From assembly GCA_963971405.1 (NCBI GenBank), contig OZ020486.1:27365419-27429418 (forward strand): a DNA stretch of 64,000 nucleotides, given 5' to 3'. Positions 3,359 through 47,698 of the stretch are shown here, one piece after another. Position 1 is the first letter of the stretch. Every line of letters begins with the position of its first letter. Source of the DNA: Psococerastis gibbosa. Taxonomy: Eukaryota > Arthropoda > Insecta > Psocodea > Psocidae. Both the position numbers and the translations under genes were made by a program. Under the pieces are notes generated by a model. That model saw nothing but the letters and a program-made list of their open reading frames with translations. It ran no database searches and had not been told where the DNA came from.

Positions 3359-3794
3359 GAAGTAACACAGTGGCTATAAAAGAGAGCGTCAAAATGTTGA
3401 ATATCTACCCTTGGTTATAATACCACTTTGTGCCACGTTCACACATTGTGCGAGTAGTAGTTTATTAAAAACACCCCCGGACCTCCTTCTATGTGATAAT
3501 ACCAATATAACTTTGTCAATGCAAGTTAACTTCTTTAAACCGTCGTTATTGTTAACTGCATTGCATACAGTATATTTATTACTTTGATATGATTTATGTT
3601 GAAAAATGCCTCCCCCCAACAGGAACCTTAATTGGCGCCCCCGGTTTGGTCTCGTCAATTGGAAATGGACTATTTCATACACACAGTACTACAAGTATTT
3701 TTTTTTTTTAGTTTTCAAGGGGTTCTGCCGTGAAACAGACAGGCGACAGAAGTTTACCAACTTATCAAGCTCATGAATAAATTATAACACCAAA

Positions 3795-13203: not shown

Positions 13204-13349
13204 AAGGCGGGGTTTCCACATACGTAAATGATCAATAGTAAATGTGGTATTGACGTTTTAGCAGACTTTAAAGACATACTAAAAATGTTTGCTACCACGT
13301 CAAAACCATATTTACCATTGACCATTGACTTATGTGGAAACCCCGCCTA
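13204..13349. mobile_element. Fold-back family A, copy with flanking AACTA
   Basis: The palindrome runs from AAGGCGGGGTTTCCACATAC to its mate GTATGTGGAAACCCCGCCT, allowing a few mismatches. The arms carry GTCAATGGTCAATGGTAAAT-type sequence. The core is TTTTAGCAGACTTTAAAGAC...AAAATGTTTGCTACCACGTC. AACTA lies directly outside both ends and could be a target-site duplication. There is no coding capacity. Confidence 0.85.
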
Positions 13350-14317: not shown

Positions 14318-14850
14318 GGAACAAAAGGGCCTGTAGAGTAGTGGTACAGACTCCGACTTTTACCCGAAAGGTTGTTCGAGTCCCACACTGGCTACACTTT
14401 CTGGCCATGCTTCAGAGGGCATGGAAAGTAGACGGTCCCGGGCATGGGCGCCGGTTCCATAAGGCTTGGTATGGCCTGGGCCATACCAATATTCAGATTG
14501 GTATGGCTGAGCCATACCAATAATTTTAGGAATAACCACCTCATATTTTAGTGTAGCCTAAGTTATTTTGATATTTTTTTTATTTTTATTTATTTTTATT
14601 GAAATGATAGCTACAGAGTGAAGCCATATATTTATTGGGGGAGAGGGGGGGGGGGGCAAATTGACTCCTTCCCCCCGAAAAAAAGATTTCCTCGGTGTTA
14701 GGCCATACCAATAATTTTCACAATTCGGCGGATTCCATGGTCCCGGGTCATATCAGTTGAGTGTAAGAGAGGGCTGTACCGCCCTAACTCCGCTATAGGT
14801 TGGCTTAGTAATAGAACAACAAAAAGTCAAGATTTATTTATTTAAGGGCC
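14318..14850 (+). mobile_element. SINE family 2 split by an inserted element
   Basis: The head is CTGTAGAGTAGTGGTACAGACTCC (A-box like), then GAAAGGTTGTTCGAGTCCCA (B-box like), then GGCCATGCTTCAGAGGGCAT. It continues to GGTCCCGGGCA near 14450. After an insertion the body resumes at TCCCGGGTCATATCAGTTGA near 14742 and ends at CCGCCCTAACTCCGC, TTGGCTTAGTAATAGAAC and an A/T tail. Reverse-strand copies lie at 15885-16012 and 37545-37740. Confidence 0.7.
14451..14741. mobile_element. Element inserted in SINE 2
   Basis: The segment interrupts SINE family 2. It holds repeats of GCCATACCAATAATTTT (near 14509 and 14702), their inverted mate TTGGTATGGC (near 14469 and 14498), and a G-run near 14645 with CCCCCCGAAAAAA. 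It ends close to ATTCCATGGTCCCGGG, where the SINE body resumes. The class is unknown. Confidence 0.5.
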
Positions 14851-15884
14851 GAGGGCGTAAGTATGAATTCTCAGGCAAAGAGGGAAAAATACTGTATTTA
14901 GCAAACTGACTGACAGGGTAGCTTAAAAAGCAGAAATTCAGCAAGTAGGCGTTGTATAACACAAAAAATAAACGGTTTCAGATTCTCATCTAGTTGGTAC
15001 CTAGTAGGCTACATAATAGCCTATTTTTATTTTAATAAAATTGAAGTTGAGCAACGCCGAGTATATTGGAAATTACTTAGCGCTAAATTTTACTTGCTTG
15101 AACAAACAAAAAAATAGTGTTTTAATAAAACTTGCTATAATAAAAATGGTTTTATACTAACACTACAGTGGGTTTCTTTGATAAAGTTAATTTCTTAGCT
15201 ATTATTTGGGTGATTAGGTATTATAATATTTTAGTTTCGTTTAACTAATAATACTAGTAGTTAGGTACCTATAGTTGTTTTAACAATTTCATTATATCAA
15301 AGCACTAATTTTTTGTTTGCTGATTAAAATGAACTACCACAAAAGTCCTATTATTTTTTCTATTTTGCTTCCTTTGTGAAATTGGCCAAATCATGTTCCT
15401 ATGTCCCTAGGCCAATGCAAAAAATTGTGGTTGCCTCGTCTTTTTTGAAACAATTAAGCCTACCGCCGTAGCACGATGCATGCTGCATGAAAGCTTCAAG
15501 TAAAATCAAACAACGTTTCATAACTGATTAGTTTTAGGCTGCCTTTTTAAACAACTTAGATATGAAAAGCGGTTCTGTGATAGGTATAGGACAAAAAATC
15601 GGAGATCCCGTTATACAAAACTGATTGCAAGCAACAAAGCTACAACTACCAACCTACGTAATAAGGCCAGACTTTTCTATAGTAGGTACGAATCCCACTG
15701 TTAAAACCTTCTGTTGCCTGTACCAGCTGTGCGGTTATAGGCCTCCCCAGTATCGTACATTCCTTGTTTCAATGGAAGATACGATACGTTTTCCTATCCA
15801 CAATGTATTTTTCCAACTATTTTTCCCTTAGTTCCTTAGCTAGGTATCATCATCATTGATCATCCCTATTGACTTATAAATAAA

Positions 15885-16012
15885 TAAATAAGGACTTCTT
15901 GTTGTTTCTATTACTAAGCCAACCTAGTGGAGTTAGGGCTATAAAGCCCTCGCTTACACTCAACTAGGAAGGCCCGGGACCGCCTGCTTTACATGCCCTC
16001 CGAAGAATGGCC
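15885..16012 (-). mobile_element. SINE family 2 fragment
   Basis: Reverse copy: TTTCTATTACTAAGCCAACC, GTGGAGTTAGGGCTAT, ACACTCAACTAGGAAGGCCC, GGGACCGCCTGC and CCCTCCGAAGAATGGCCA. The tRNA-like head is missing where the nested palindrome region begins. Confidence 0.65.
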
Positions 16013-16046: not shown

Positions 16047-16997
16047 TAAGGTGCGGTTTCCACCGACCTCTAAGTGCAAAATACACATACGGTGACGTGG
16101 TAGCAGACATTCAAGACTTAGGCGGGTTTTCCGACGACCTATCATTGCAGAATGCACATGACATTGACGGAAATTTGAATTTTTCTTTTTATAGAAATCT
16201 ATTAAAATGTTTGTACTTAACATATCCCATGACGCCATTTTTTAATTTTAGTTTGTTTGTTTGTGACTTTAGGCGGGGTTTCCATATACGTCAATGGTCA
16301 ATGAGAAATATGGTTTTGACGTGGTAGCAGACATTTTTAGTAAGTCTTAAGGCGCCCATTCCACCGACCGGCTAGGGCTATTTACAAAAACGGTGACGTG
16401 GTAGCAGACATTCAAGACTTAGGTGGCGTTTCCGCCGACCTCGCATTGCAGAATGCAAATGACATTGACGGAAATTAGAATTTTTCTTTTTATAGAAATA
16501 AGCTATTAAAATGTTTGTACTTAACATATCCCATGACGCCATTTTTTAATTTTAGTTTGTTTGTTTGTGATTTTACTGTATGATCATTAATTGATCCATT
16601 TTAACTATGGCATAGAGGAAAATAAACATTTCCGTCAATTCTGCAATGCGAGGTCGGTGGAAACCCCGCCTAAGTCTTGAATGTCTGTCACGTCACTGTT
16701 TTTATAAATAGCCCTAGCCGGTCGATGGAATGGTCGCCTAAATGTAACCTGCTAAAACGTCAATTTCATATTTCTCATTGACCATTCACGTATGTGGAAA
16801 GCCCGCCTTACTCAATGATCATTGATCAATTTTAACTAGGCCTAGAGTAAAACAAAAATTTCCGTCAATGTCATTTGCATTCTGCAATGAGAGGTCGGTG
16901 GAACACCGCCTTTGTTAATGAGCTGAGTATGAGTATCTGCTACCACGTCACCGTATGTGTATTTTGCACTTAGAGGTCGATGGAAACCGCGCCTTAT
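16047..16997. mobile_element. Five concentric nested family-A palindromes
   Basis: Left half-elements start at 16047 (AAGGTGCGGTTTCCACCGAC), about 16119 (TTAGGCGGGTTTTCCGACG), 16270 (TAGGCGGGGTTTCCATATAC), 16348 (TAAGGCGCCCATTCCACCG) and 16419 (TTAGGTGGCGTTTCCGCCG). The mates end, in exactly reversed order, at about 16673, 16740, 16810, 16912 and 16997. Most shell junctions occur just after a GACGTGGTAGCAGACATT core. The second and fifth left units are about 150-bp direct repeats of each other (both with GAATGCAXATGACATTGACGG and CATATCCCATGACGCC). Confidence 0.8.
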
Positions 16998-18922: not shown

Positions 18923-21741
18923 ATGAAGTCCTTGTCGTTATTTCTTTTGTACTTTGTTGCGTTGGCCATTGCCACGGAGGACAATGTCCAAGAAGAAGAA
19001 TCAGAGGAACCAAGTACGGGACTGTCATCTCTTAATCTTCCAGGTAAGTTAATATTGTGTGCCATTCAACTAAGGGTTCCCCACATAGACAGAAGGGCAA
19101 GTACAAGTAACTTCCAGAGATGAAACATTGGCAATTCGCTAAGCAAAGGGAGTTCGAAATTGAAACTCAAAGTAACCATGAAAGATAATTAATTGGTGGA
19201 CACGGCCTCATGAATCGCTAAGAACCGTAATGCTAGTCCACGGCTCTGTTGTCCAGTAGGGTCTGACAATTTTTATTTCACATACCACGCAATTTAATGA
19301 AGGTCCAATCCGACGTCTGATACTTAAAATTAAAGTGACGCGTATCTTATTATTATAATTATTGACGTAGGCGAACCACTGGACTAACATGAGCCTAATA
19401 GCAAGGCCGTAGCCAAGGCCCCCCCCCCCCCGAAATGAAATCGCTTGATACTAGATAAAATCAGATTTTGAGAGGAAAAATAAAAACCACTAGGCCTATG
19501 TAATATCCAATGAAAATTCTGAACCCCCCCCCCAAAAAAAAAATCCTGGCTACGGCCTTGCCTAATAGACTACATTTCATTTTTCATTTCGCCTAGAGCT
19601 CTATACAGGAGATGGGCCATTCGTTCGCTTCTCACCAAAAATATATTTTTGCATTTCAGGGGCCACCTGACACACCTCCTGTGACCAGCCATTGAAAAGA
19701 CGTGGCAGGTCGCCTCAGACATTTTTGGAGGGAGCGAATATCCCATCTCACTTATATAGAATTCTAATTAGGCCTACAGTGGTAGATCAGTGTGATGAAG
19801 TGAATACTAGTAGTCCATATTAATAATTCAGTTTTTCTTAGTTCTTCGGTGTATGTTACAGGTGACTTCGCTGTTTCTGAAAATTTCTTACGAGCTATCA
19901 GCGTGGCAGGGGCCATTGTGACAGGAGTAGCAGGCTTCGCGGCAATCCTATCATTTGTCCTTCCGCTCATTGGATTCAGAACATGCTTGATCCTTGGAAA
20001 CTGCGGCGACGATACAACGCCATACAACCAGGGCGTTAGTTCTAACTCCGTATATGACCAAGGGTAAGCCGTACGATTTTATTTTATTAAAAAATCTATA
20101 AGGAACTCAGGACATTTACGTCTCCTCCTAGCCTACTGTGTCATGGGCATAGCTTGTGGAAACAGTGCTTCTTATCGATAATCTTGACATGCAGCAACTT
20201 GCAATCCGACTAATCTCAACACTGTGCACCCAATATAGAGCAATGTTAGATGACCTCCATGATCCTGTGCATGGTAGATATTGCCAGTAACCTGTCAGAC
20301 TTGTCACATATACTGGTCTGAGGCGCTTATTCCACCTACGTCAATAGTCAATAGTAAATGTGGTATTGACGTGGTAGCAGACATTTTTAGACTGTCTTTA
20401 CTGTCTGCTACCACGTCAATACCACGTTTACAATTGACTATTGACGTAGGTGGAATAAGCGCCTGATGGGAGTAACGGGTAGTAATTGGTATGAAGTGAT
20501 TGTTGAGCTGATGGTCAGGAATAGTCCAGCAGGCAGAGAACTGGGTTATGAAACGTAAGGTAAAGATTTCAGACTCGACATAAAAGGTAAAATATTCCGC
20601 TTGACCCTAATGGGTACCATAATAATGAAGGAATCTTTATGAGTCTAGTCCAATGCCAACGACCCCACGGATTTCGGACATTATTTGTATTGTTCCCGTA
20701 TGAATTTTTGGCCATTGGCAAATTGGTATACGTCCTCGATGTCAACCTCCACCAGCTACAAGCGATAATGGACAAGCTGAGACAAGCTCGCCATTGACGC
20801 AATGAAACAGGCGGCGAAAGCATGACTTAACCAAGTACAAATACGAGTCAAAATGGGTACACACCTTCACTGGAAAGGAAAAGACCACCGGACATGTTAC
20901 TAATCACAACATCCGATCAAGAGAGAGGGATCCTCTACCAGTCCTCAAGACTAGACCCTCTTGGGCAGTCGTTCTTCAAACTGATCGCCACAAGCTCTCA
21001 AAAGTTCACCCTAACTTTTGTTGTACTCTAAATAGCGTGATTAGCTTTACTAACCCAATTCAATGCCTAGAGCATGACGAAATTTCAATAGGGCGTTCAC
21101 TAATTTCTTATTTTCAATTAAACACTACCGGTACTAAAAATCTGAACTTTCACCTTTTCAATAGGCATATATACACTATGAAATGATGTTTACACGTAGT
21201 TTTATAAGATTGAGATGTGCGGCTTTCAAAAAAGTTTATATTCTATTAAGGCTTTTCCATTGACCTCGTATTTGAACGTGAGCGAGATATTGACGTGGTA
21301 GCAGACATTAAATACAGTCTAAAAATGTCTGCTACCAAGTCAATAACTCGCTCACGTTCAAATACGAGGTCAATTTATTGCTGAAATTGGGCTAACCTCG
21401 CGAAAAGTTTCGCTTCGTGGGGTCAGCATTTATTGCTACAAATATTAATGCGTGACTGTTTTTCTTTCAGTTGAATATTGATTATGATCTATTTTTGCCA
21501 AATATGCCAAGCTACTGTATATGTATTTTTAATATCAATCGTGTCTGATGCTAAAGCTAATAATGTTGGTTTTATTTTTAGGTACACTGGCTACAACTAT
21601 GGAGGTGGATTCAGAAAGAGATCTCTCGAATATGTTGGACCAATATTAAAAGCACTCTCGTCAGCTTATGAAAAGTATGGTCCTCCGGCACATCTACAGG
21701 CACGGAAAGCCGTCCACAAATCAGCACAGAAGAGACGCTAA
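18923..21741 (+). CDS. Small secreted protein (160 aa), three exons
   Basis: Exons are 18923-19043, 19862-20063 and 21582-21741. Junctions G/GTAAGT...CAG/GT and GG/GTAAGC...TTTTTAG/G keep one frame, with split codons G|GT and GG|G. Residues 1-18 (MKSLSLFLLYFVALAIAT) are a signal peptide. An acidic stretch follows (EDNVQEEESEEP), then a hydrophobic segment at about 52-79 (AISVAGAIVTGVAGFAAILS). Two cysteines at 82-88 could form a disulfide. A tyrosine/glycine-rich piece (YTGYNYGGG) precedes a likely furin site RKR at 119-121. The C-terminus SLEYVGPILKALSSAYEKY may be a released peptide or helix. AATAAA lies near 22057. The plan is typical of arthropod-restricted secreted proteins. I do not recognise the family; function is unknown. 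Confidence 0.85.
19401..19560. mobile_element. Fold-back with GCAAGGCCGTAGCC tips and C-runs
   Basis: CAAGGCCGTAGCCAAGG pairs with CCTGGCTACGGCCTTG at the far end. C-runs lie just inside both ends. The interior GAAATCGCTTGATACTAGAT / TTTTGAGAGGAAAAATAAAA matches the element at 41474-41634. It lies in intron 1 of the 160-aa secreted-protein gene. Confidence 0.8.
20321..20464. mobile_element. Fold-back family A, near-perfect palindrome
   Basis: AGGCGCTTATTCCACCTACG pairs with CGTAGGTGGAATAAGCGCCT. The core is GACGTGGTAGCAGACATTTT...CTGTCTGCTACCACGTC. Few mismatches in about 70-bp arms suggest a recent origin. It lies in intron 2 of the 160-aa secreted-protein gene. Confidence 0.9.
20590..20845. 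repeat. Dispersed repeat, partner of 2510-2765
   Basis: It shares GGATTTCGGACATTATTTG, GTATGAATTTTTGGCCATTG and CAAGCGATAATGGACAAGC with the 2.5-kb copy. It lies within intron 2 of the secreted-protein gene. Confidence 0.6.
21248..21375. mobile_element. Fold-back family A with different arms
   Basis: The left tip is AAGGCTTTTCCATTGACCTC. The arms are CGTATTTGAACGTGAGCGAG, unlike other copies. The core TTGACGTGGTAGCAGACATT and mate AATGTCTGCTACCAAGTCAA are shared with them. The right arm mirrors the left up to GAGGTCAAT, but the right tip itself is missing. Confidence 0.85.
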
Positions 21742-45800: not shown

Positions 45801-46155
45801 TTAGGCGACTATTCCACCGGCGAATTTACTTAATTTGTGATTTGAGATTTTTTTTTTTAAGGAGATTATTATGTAGATACTTAACGTATCTATTATAAAT
45901 TAAGTTATAATATGGTAGCAGACATCACTAATAAGTCTCTTCCATATTATAACTTAATTTATAATAGATATACATACTTAACGAGTCCAGGCGGAAGACG
46001 TTTTATGGGGTGTCCAGTAGCGGCCTGGATGGCCTTGTCGTTAGCTTCGGCTAATAGATAAGTTAAATATCTACATAATAGTTTCCTTAAAACAAAACAA
46101 GCAAAAAATCTCAAATCACAAATGAAGTAAATTCGCCGGTGGAATGCCCGTCTTA
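45801..46155. mobile_element. Long fold-back family A with unique arms
   Basis: TTAGGCGACTATTCCACCGG and GCGAATTTACTTAATTTGTG pair with CACAAATGAAGTAAATTCGC and CCGGTGGAATGCCCGTCTTA. The middle arms TAAATTAAGTTATAATATGG pair with CCATATTATAACTTAATTTA. The core GGTAGCAGACATCA is retained. The right half carries about 60 extra bases near 45985-46060. Confidence 0.8.
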
Positions 46156-46347: not shown

Positions 46348-47698
46348 GGTTGCCAAACGTCCCGTAATTCAAGGGACAGTCCCGTATTTGAAGGGTTTGT
46401 CCCGTGTCCCTTACGCTTCTCGTAAGGGACGGAAAATGACCGTATTTAAATTAAAGGTTTAGGTTGAATTTGCTAATAAAATATGTTTAAAAAAAGTGTT
46501 AAAAAAAAGTGTAAAAAACTTAACAATTCGAAAAAAATTATTGATTTGGTAAAATCCAGTCAAAAATATGATATTGTTAAAAATTATAAACAGTGTGAGG
46601 GAAAATTACCTACTTTTTTCACATAGGTTAGTGCCTACCTATACATAGGTGGGGTTTCCACATACGTCAATGGTCAGTGGTAAATGTGGTATTGACGTTT
46701 TGGCAGACATTAAAGACATACTAAAAATGTCTGCTACCACGTCAAAACCATATTTACCATTGACCATTGACTTAGGTGTTCACTTCACTTACGAAAACTT
46801 AAATGTTGGCCTGAATCCTTGTTAATACGCATGTGTCAGGCTCTACCCCTCCAACGAGGAAGGTGTACAACTTACAAGTTCCAAAATTTTAAAATATAGC
46901 CTAAAAGTAAAACCTCCAGCACTTATTTTTATCAATAGCTTTTCATGGTCCTTAAACGTTATTATTAGCCTAAATGCAACCAGTATGTACTGGATTTTGA
47001 TCATAGCAAACCTACCAACCTATAGGTTTTACTTTCAGGCTATATTTTTTAATTCTGGAATGTTGACTTTATCAAATGGTTAATTGTTAGGTATTATTAA
47101 TTATGACAGCTAACTTAATTAGTTACTGTTTTGACTATTTTCCGTGACGAAATCGAGAATCTACTGAATTGTATTATATTGTTGGAAATGGAATAAATAG
47201 CCTAGGCTACTACTTTGCATATAGTAACTGTTAAGTAACTATATTATATAGTAACTAGTTAAGTTAGCTGCCATAATTAATAATATCTAACAATTAACCA
47301 TTAATTTTTATAAACTCAAAGTTCCAGAATTTAAAAATATAGCCTAAAAGTAAAACCTATAGGTAGGTATGCTATGATCAAAATCTAGTACATACTGGTT
47401 GCATTTAGGCTTATAATAAAGTTTAAGGACCATGAAAAGCTATTGATAAAAATGAGGGCTGGAGGTTTTACTTTTAGGCTATATTTTAAAATTCTGGAAC
47501 TTGTAAGTTGTACACCGTCCTCGTTGGAGGGGTAGAGCCAATTGGACACGAAGTCCTGACACATGCGCAGTAACTAGGCTTCAGGCCAGCATTTAAGTTT
47601 TCGTTCGTGTCCACTTGCTCTTTGGATTTGACGAGGGCCCCTGAAGAAAAGTGCAACAGGGCGTCCCGTAAATGCGAAAAATTTATTTGCTAGCCCTG
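46348..47698. mobile_element. hAT-like element (CAGGGTTGCCA tip) loaded with fold-backs
   Basis: CAGGGTTGCCAAACGTCCCG on the left pairs loosely with CGTCCCGTAAATGCG...TTTGCTAGCCCTGG on the right. Inside are a family A fold-back (46647-46779) and a very long inverted repeat. The left arm is about 46790-47100 and the right about 47290-47610, with TATAGCCTAAAAGTAAAACC, CTTTTCATGGTCCTTAAAC and CCCCTCCAACGAGGA mirrored. The centre TTAATTGTTAGGTATTATTA is also mirrored. Confidence 0.6.
46647..46779. mobile_element. Fold-back family A copy
   Basis: AGGTGGGGTTTCCACATACG, arms GTCAATGGTCAGTGGTAAAT and core GCAGACATTAAAGACATACT...ATGTCTGCTACCACGTC. The right tip is truncated at GACTTAGGTG. Confidence 0.8.

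Follow-up and report, generated by a model that had tools for sequence, protein, structure and literature searches.

Matched ends in a large complex of PIF/Harbinger-like hairpin MITEs of Psococerastis gibbosa

How does a hairpin element whose arms vary from copy to copy keep its own two arms alike? The question arises from a 64,000-nucleotide stretch of the Psococerastis gibbosa genome (contig OZ020486.1 of assembly GCA_963971405.1; hereafter the window), in which an initial annotation recognized hairpins with common tips and a common core. It described their arms as interchangeable and matching each other in every copy, and proposed that new arm sequence is re-symmetrised. Here we describe these hairpins, ask where in their history arm symmetry is kept and where it is lost, and weigh the explanations.

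Results

Hairpins and nested elements in the window

The tip-and-core hairpins noticed near 13204, 20321, 21248 and 46647 are real. They lie at 13206-13347, 20322-20463, 21249-21374 and 46648-46780, built from the tip GGYGNNNWTTCCAY and the core GACGTGGTAGCAGACATT or a near version of it, and the shells of the same kind lie at 16050-16993 (Table 1). Three window hairpins folded far better than shuffled sequences (z of -22.9, -13.6 and -17.0). The arms of 20322-20463 are 63 nt long and 97% complementary, and TGA flanks the element on the left (20319-20321) and the right (20464-20466). The copy placed near 45801 has its tip in common with the others, but its core is degenerate and it belongs to a distant family at 45804-46152.

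Two further generalizations did not hold for all copies. Tips are incomplete in the hairpin at 21249, whose left tip is degraded and right tip absent, and in the one at 46648, which has no right tip. The arms do not always match either: 13206-13347 and 46648-46780 bear different cores on their two arms. This inequality (GACGTTTT vs. GACGTGG) recurs in sampled loci L005 and L031, and appears as AACGTTTT in L020 and L050. The core plus its preceding T (for example, window positions 20367-20385) includes TGACGTGG, a putative ATF6/XBP1 site of the unfolded-protein response. The window also holds a second inverted-repeat pair (14739-14844 and 15877-15981), about 1.1 kb apart, from which the tip and core of the hairpins are absent.

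Table 1. Hairpin elements and nested features in the window.
Feature	Positions	Description
Type ii simple hairpin	13206-13347	Cores unequal: GACGTTTT left, GACGTGG right; TAA on both flanks
Outer shell	16050-16993	Tip, arm CCGACCTCTAAGTGCAAAATACACATACGGT, core; 68-nt arms, 94%; encloses nested elements
Inner element B of outer shell	16121-16910	Tip, GACCTATCATTGCAG arm, without core; 62-nt arms, 85%
Type ii hairpin inside B	16272-16807	Loop occupied by composite; 60-nt arms, 87%
Full-length composite	16351-16738	Outer arm CCGACCGGCTAGGGCTATTTACAAAAACGGT; in loop of type ii hairpin 16272-16807
Inner element B of composite	16422-16670	Lies within composite 16351-16738
Type i simple hairpin	20322-20463	Arm CCTACGTCAATAGTCAATAGTAAATGTGGTATT with tip and core; mate arm across an 18-nt centre
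Type iv simple hairpin	21249-21374	GTATTTGAACGTGAGCG arm; 51-nt arms, 96% complementary
Separate longer family	45804-46152	Shares tip and degenerate core ATATGGTAGCAGACATC; TTA on both flanks
Type ii simple hairpin, cores unequal	46648-46780	Right tip lost; right end approximate

The elements at 16050-16993 form a nest that reads, from the outside inward, shell, B, type ii hairpin, composite and second B, with the first B (16121-16910) split by the type ii hairpin 16272-16807. The composite, flanked by TAA at 16348-16350 and 16739-16741, scores 348 against the 384-column composite majority sequence, in reverse orientation. Composites consist of an outer end, core and spacer around an inner element at a constant position; their stem is a single palindrome of ~103 bp, and the composite bears its flanking target duplication as a single unit. 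Genome-wide, three places have the b arm and an exact core with each of the next five bases differing from the composite spacer CAAGA; a random follower passes this filter only about one time in four, so the count is weak evidence. At L020:1521-1881, the right outer tip of a composite is fused directly to the arm of the inner element, as if by a deletion between tips.

Genome-wide abundance and sampling

The genome-wide core search that the initial annotation had proposed located the 18-nt core, with up to two mismatches, at 46,633 places (23,299 and 23,334 in the two orientations; 409 Mb genome, 68 contigs), against 13 (8 and 5) for a reversed-pattern control, all of these counts being lower bounds. 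We sampled 103 loci: the first core matches (L001-L008), 12 arbitrary 10-kb stretches, 80 core-bearing loci and three transposase loci. The 80 core-bearing loci (L021-L100, ~600 bases each) come from the first 5 Mb of a single contig and were picked for carrying an exact core in forward orientation. Type frequencies are biased, since L001-L008 and L021-L100 were picked via core matches.

The final set, drawn from these loci and the window, comprised 77 distinct elements with two tips and two cores. L003 (which overlaps L002), four duplicates, ten tipless core pairs and 18 unpaired cores were left out before counting. Composites of the b type were the commonest family in this sample (61 of 77 elements). 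Several loci (L068/L069/L070/L071, L067/L072 and L055/L056) have shared or near-shared flanks and are local duplications that carried the hairpins along.

Target duplication and class

Identical 3-bp flanks were present in 45 of the 77 elements, and were TAA or TTA in 37 of these. Another 17 differ only by A or T in the middle base (TAA/TTA or TTA/TAA), and flank pairs other than those of TAA and TTA amount to 23 of 77 in total. Just outside the duplication, C before and G after were the commonest bases (C at -4 in 26 and G at +4 in 37 of 67 elements, duplicates still included), and element ends begin with GG. Whether empty sites show a target duplication had been posed as a check, and paralogous empty sites do show one, of 3 bp. 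By joined flanks, single-copy empty sites were found for L064 (94.9% identity), L091 (95.5%), L093 (85.8% and 83.3%) and L066 (81.7%). This search covered the fetched loci and gave 41 spanning matches, the rest being weak, gapped or self-matches.

The 3-bp TWA duplication that marks PIF/Harbinger (PHIS) elements is thus seen among the 77 elements, in 2,583 concordant composites and at empty sites, and the hairpins are PIF/Harbinger-like (Tourist-type), non-autonomous MITEs that form a large complex with thousands of copies. A 2-bp AT duplication, as in ISL2EU elements, does not match the 3 bp seen here, nor does the Spy pattern of insertion at AAATTT with no duplication. A hairpin of long inverted arms agrees with Foldback elements in structure only. 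Foldback-like elements make longer target duplications, and the 3 bp found here set the hairpins apart from them.

The genome holds 220 candidate DDE_Tnp_4 transposases, and all 150 of those scored lay above the cut-off. One transposase locus, L101, carries its DDE_Tnp_4 transposase ORF together with a THAP domain ORF and a YqaJ-like ORF, a set of genes known from ISL2EU elements; a long-arm hairpin lies at 3535-3698 of the same locus.

Among described systems, PIF/Harbinger elements make a TWA duplication, and NuwaII is reported to have a C|TNA|G target and TIRs starting with GG (PMC4482050). The likeness to the hairpins covers the TWA duplication, the GG ends, a target bias towards C|TWA|G that here amounts to a preference only, short non-coding copies and the presence of DDE_Tnp_4 transposases within the same genome. 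Unlike the MITEs portrayed there, the hairpins have a long stem with a conserved inner core and a self-nested composite, and 30% of the counted composites have duplications discordant in the middle base. Around the three transposases inspected (L101-L103), no pair of hairpin ends brackets the gene within the 5 kb fetched, so that no autonomous partner with matching ends emerged there. The Foldback transposon Tetris (and Galileo, cited in the same source, PMC4079207) resembles our elements in its long inverted arms, scant middle, rearranged forms and the lack of a known autonomous copy, but the hairpins differ in their 3-bp duplication and in short arms that show no tandem repeats.

Arm types form a graded series

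The 192 half-arms reduced to 24 representative sequences. Clustering by arm sequence, a check suggested with the initial annotation, joined 23 of the 24 in one similarity graph at z >= 4 against shuffled partners, with two clades at z >= 5; the graph is single linkage on raw z over 276 pairs, and the L059 and window 21292 representatives contain flanking bases. The only type outside belongs to the family of 45804-46152 (TTTACTTAATTTGTG type; half-arm L050:429). Of 153 arms scored, 147 have 44-46 nt between tip start and core. Given the linked graph and this near-fixed distance, arm variety is best read as divergence at near-constant length, with intermediates. The arms are thus, for the most part, not interchangeable modules. 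The annotation had named alignment by simple divergence as the outcome that would count against it, and this is largely what emerged, a single related series of mostly equal length, with the 45804 type excepted. By sequence, the arms grade into one another across lineages.

Inserted copies drift independently

Among 61 aligned composites, arm states private to a few copies (present on three arms or fewer) were on one arm in 160 cases and mirrored on both in 1. These counts exclude in-place re-symmetrisation after insertion, and the idea that individual copies are re-symmetrised fails with it. In the three largest subfamilies, the distance between the left and right arms of the same element was close to the left-right distance between copies (0.063/0.069, 0.071/0.068 and 0.049/0.049). 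Type ii simple hairpins retain a common left-right core difference, so that asymmetry is inherited, not erased. Inserted copies drift independently, each in the ordinary fashion.

Several subfamily changes are mirrored in the outer arms

The initial idea of matched arm change does hold for source lineages, although not for single inserted copies. In the 61 composites, the changes at arm positions 13, 14, 33 and 37 were on both arms vs. one in 26/3, 27/6, 28/4 and 9/4 copies (each p 0.0005 by reshuffling of right arms). Positions 5, 6 and 31 were also mirrored by majority, but in two or three copies each. Nearly every carrier of a state at outer-stem position 2, 18 or 41 has it on a single arm, and positions 7 and 30 were tied, so mirroring is not uniform along the outer arm; the variants at 5, 6, 7, 30 and 31 have few carrier copies. 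The one-arm reading of position 41 rests on the 61 copies, and genome-wide 205 composites are A/A there.

Mirroring by majority was confined to the outer part of the stem. Seven of 12 common variants were mirrored by majority in the outer stem vs. 0 of 11 in the inner stem (Fisher p 0.005, a test that overstates independence because diagnostic sites are linked within a subfamily). With the 53 copies of unambiguous orientation, the counts were 4 of 6 vs. 0 of 9 (p 0.011). Inner positions 73 and 76 were changed on both arms in four and three copies, all within the eight ambiguously oriented ones. At site 33, 5,929 composites genome-wide were 2,251 A/A, 3,280 C/C and 398 mixed, where ~2,875 mixed would be expected if the arms were independent. 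Mixed-end copies are present (TTCA/TCAA three times), so a mixed element can insert. Across lineages, the core was less variable than the arms.

Many target duplications are discordant in the middle base

By base, the non-identical flanks among the 77 elements differ at the middle (A/T in 17, otherwise in 2), the first (5), the last (1) or several positions (7). Genome-wide, composites with exact tips were 2,583 concordant, 696 TAA/TTA and 428 TTA/TAA, so that 1,124 of 3,707 (30.3%) are discordant in the middle A/T base only. The TAA/TTA order exceeds the TTA/TAA order. TAA was paired with TCA or TGA, half of such configurations, in 92 composites genome-wide.

Mutation does not account for 1,124 A/T-discordant copies vs. 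92 with C or G, though transitions are expected to be commoner. A duplication of 2 bp, TA, would suit the 428 TTA/TAA copies but not the 696 TAA/TTA copies. We also rejected end conversion: the palindromic match of the flanks stops at -4 (matched in 5 of 17 discordant vs. 20 of 45 concordant elements), and own-arm distance is equal in the two classes (0.058 and 0.060). Pointing the other way, position -7 matches in 9 of 17 discordant vs. 12 of 45 concordant elements; the flanks of L057 are wholly palindromic over the 12 bases shown.

A staggered cut within the duplication, leaving 5-prime overhangs, was proposed for mPing excision in a study based on yeast assays (PMC4561436). We tentatively suggest that the transposase here may cut inside TWA, and that the 3-nt overhangs of the donor would anneal in the 3-nt target gap and be ligated untrimmed; this is a possibility to which we give well under even odds. 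Since the outer T and A must pair and the middle base is free, many new insertions would have a middle base from the donor on one side and from the target on the other. Full retention with equal A and T predicts about half to be discordant, so the 30% observed would correspond to retention in ~60% of insertions. Three empty sites related to the discordant copy L030 (TGA/TAA) have TAA, and a fourth match is gapped at this point; one side of L030 thus agrees with the target, as it would also after simple mutation. For L075 (TTA/TAA), one weak empty-site match (73%) reads CTA. The mPing study resembles our case in TWA flanks, a free middle base and an excision model with a staggered cut inside the duplication; its mismatched duplications are engineered constructs, whereas here they are common in natural copies (PMC4561436). 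Among the papers listed on mismatched or non-matching target site duplications, titles and abstract openings held no report of natural middle-base discordance.

Discussion

The explanation that we consider somewhat better than even (a probability of roughly 0.55) joins three parts: the hairpins are non-autonomous PIF/Harbinger-like MITEs, their tip and arm are read by a transposase and kept matched in source copies, and the core is a second site. The end recognised by an evolving transposase would consist of tip and arm together, roughly the outermost 38 bp, and source copies with two like ends would amplify best. Mixed-end copies could come from mutation or from end exchange among copies, and later be outnumbered by matched copies; a matched successor of a mixed element might arise via end exchange among copies or by short conversion in a source. 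The core may serve as a further site of binding, possibly by a Myb-like accessory protein, by analogy with zebrafish Harbinger3_DR, in which a 9-bp subterminal motif is bound by a Myb-like protein (PMC9710019). As a second binding site, the core would change little. Weighing against this explanation are the lack of a pair of these ends around the three transposase genes inspected, within the 5 kb covered, and the outer-stem positions that are not mirrored.

Selection with end exchange is favoured, and conversion in source copies is its live rival. Arm-to-arm conversion in active sources, by hairpin or cruciform repair or by template switching in gap repair, would make selection unnecessary, and we regard it as a serious but less probable account. 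It explains the mirrored positions 13, 14, 33 and 37 as well as mixed-arm copies, and it suits the type ii and long-arm types, which share an asymmetric centre and differ in their outer arms on both sides, with L101:3582 as an intermediate. What it handles poorly is the rest of the stem. Because the composite stem is one palindrome, copying from arm to arm along it should reach the inner part, yet no common variant in the inner 40 bp is mirrored by majority, and copies with the mirrored change at 37 retain a one-arm T at position 2. The single mirrored private state in 61 copies also speaks against it. Most carriers of a common inner-half variant have it on a single arm, which disfavours fold-back copying of the whole stem; under dependence on contacts with an end-binding protein, the inner part would not be expected to mirror.

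One-arm differences that persist at position 2 and within the inner element weigh against a separate founding of each arm type by fold-back of one transposon end, in which symmetry would be the founder's own. Simple hairpins are near-perfect palindromes, as such founding predicts, but composites with differing outer arms have a like inner element at the same position and mixed-arm copies exist, and we think this origin unlikely. Least probable is the boldest form of the initial proposal, in which unrelated arm modules were exchanged or captured from other sequence; the family of 45804-46152, which has no more than the tip and a weak core in common with the others, would fit such a history, but sequence links all the other arm types.

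Under the favoured reading of selection with end exchange, the hairpin symmetry of an inserted copy, which is lost by drift, is separable from the symmetry of its source lineage, which is kept. The thousands of copies could reveal which end positions need to match, and so yield a predicted transposase footprint. The discordant middle bases offer natural evidence on how PIF/Harbinger-type elements are cut and joined. If the overhang reading is true, the genome would hold a record of transfer from donor to target in thousands of copies, beside the concerted evolution of the ends.
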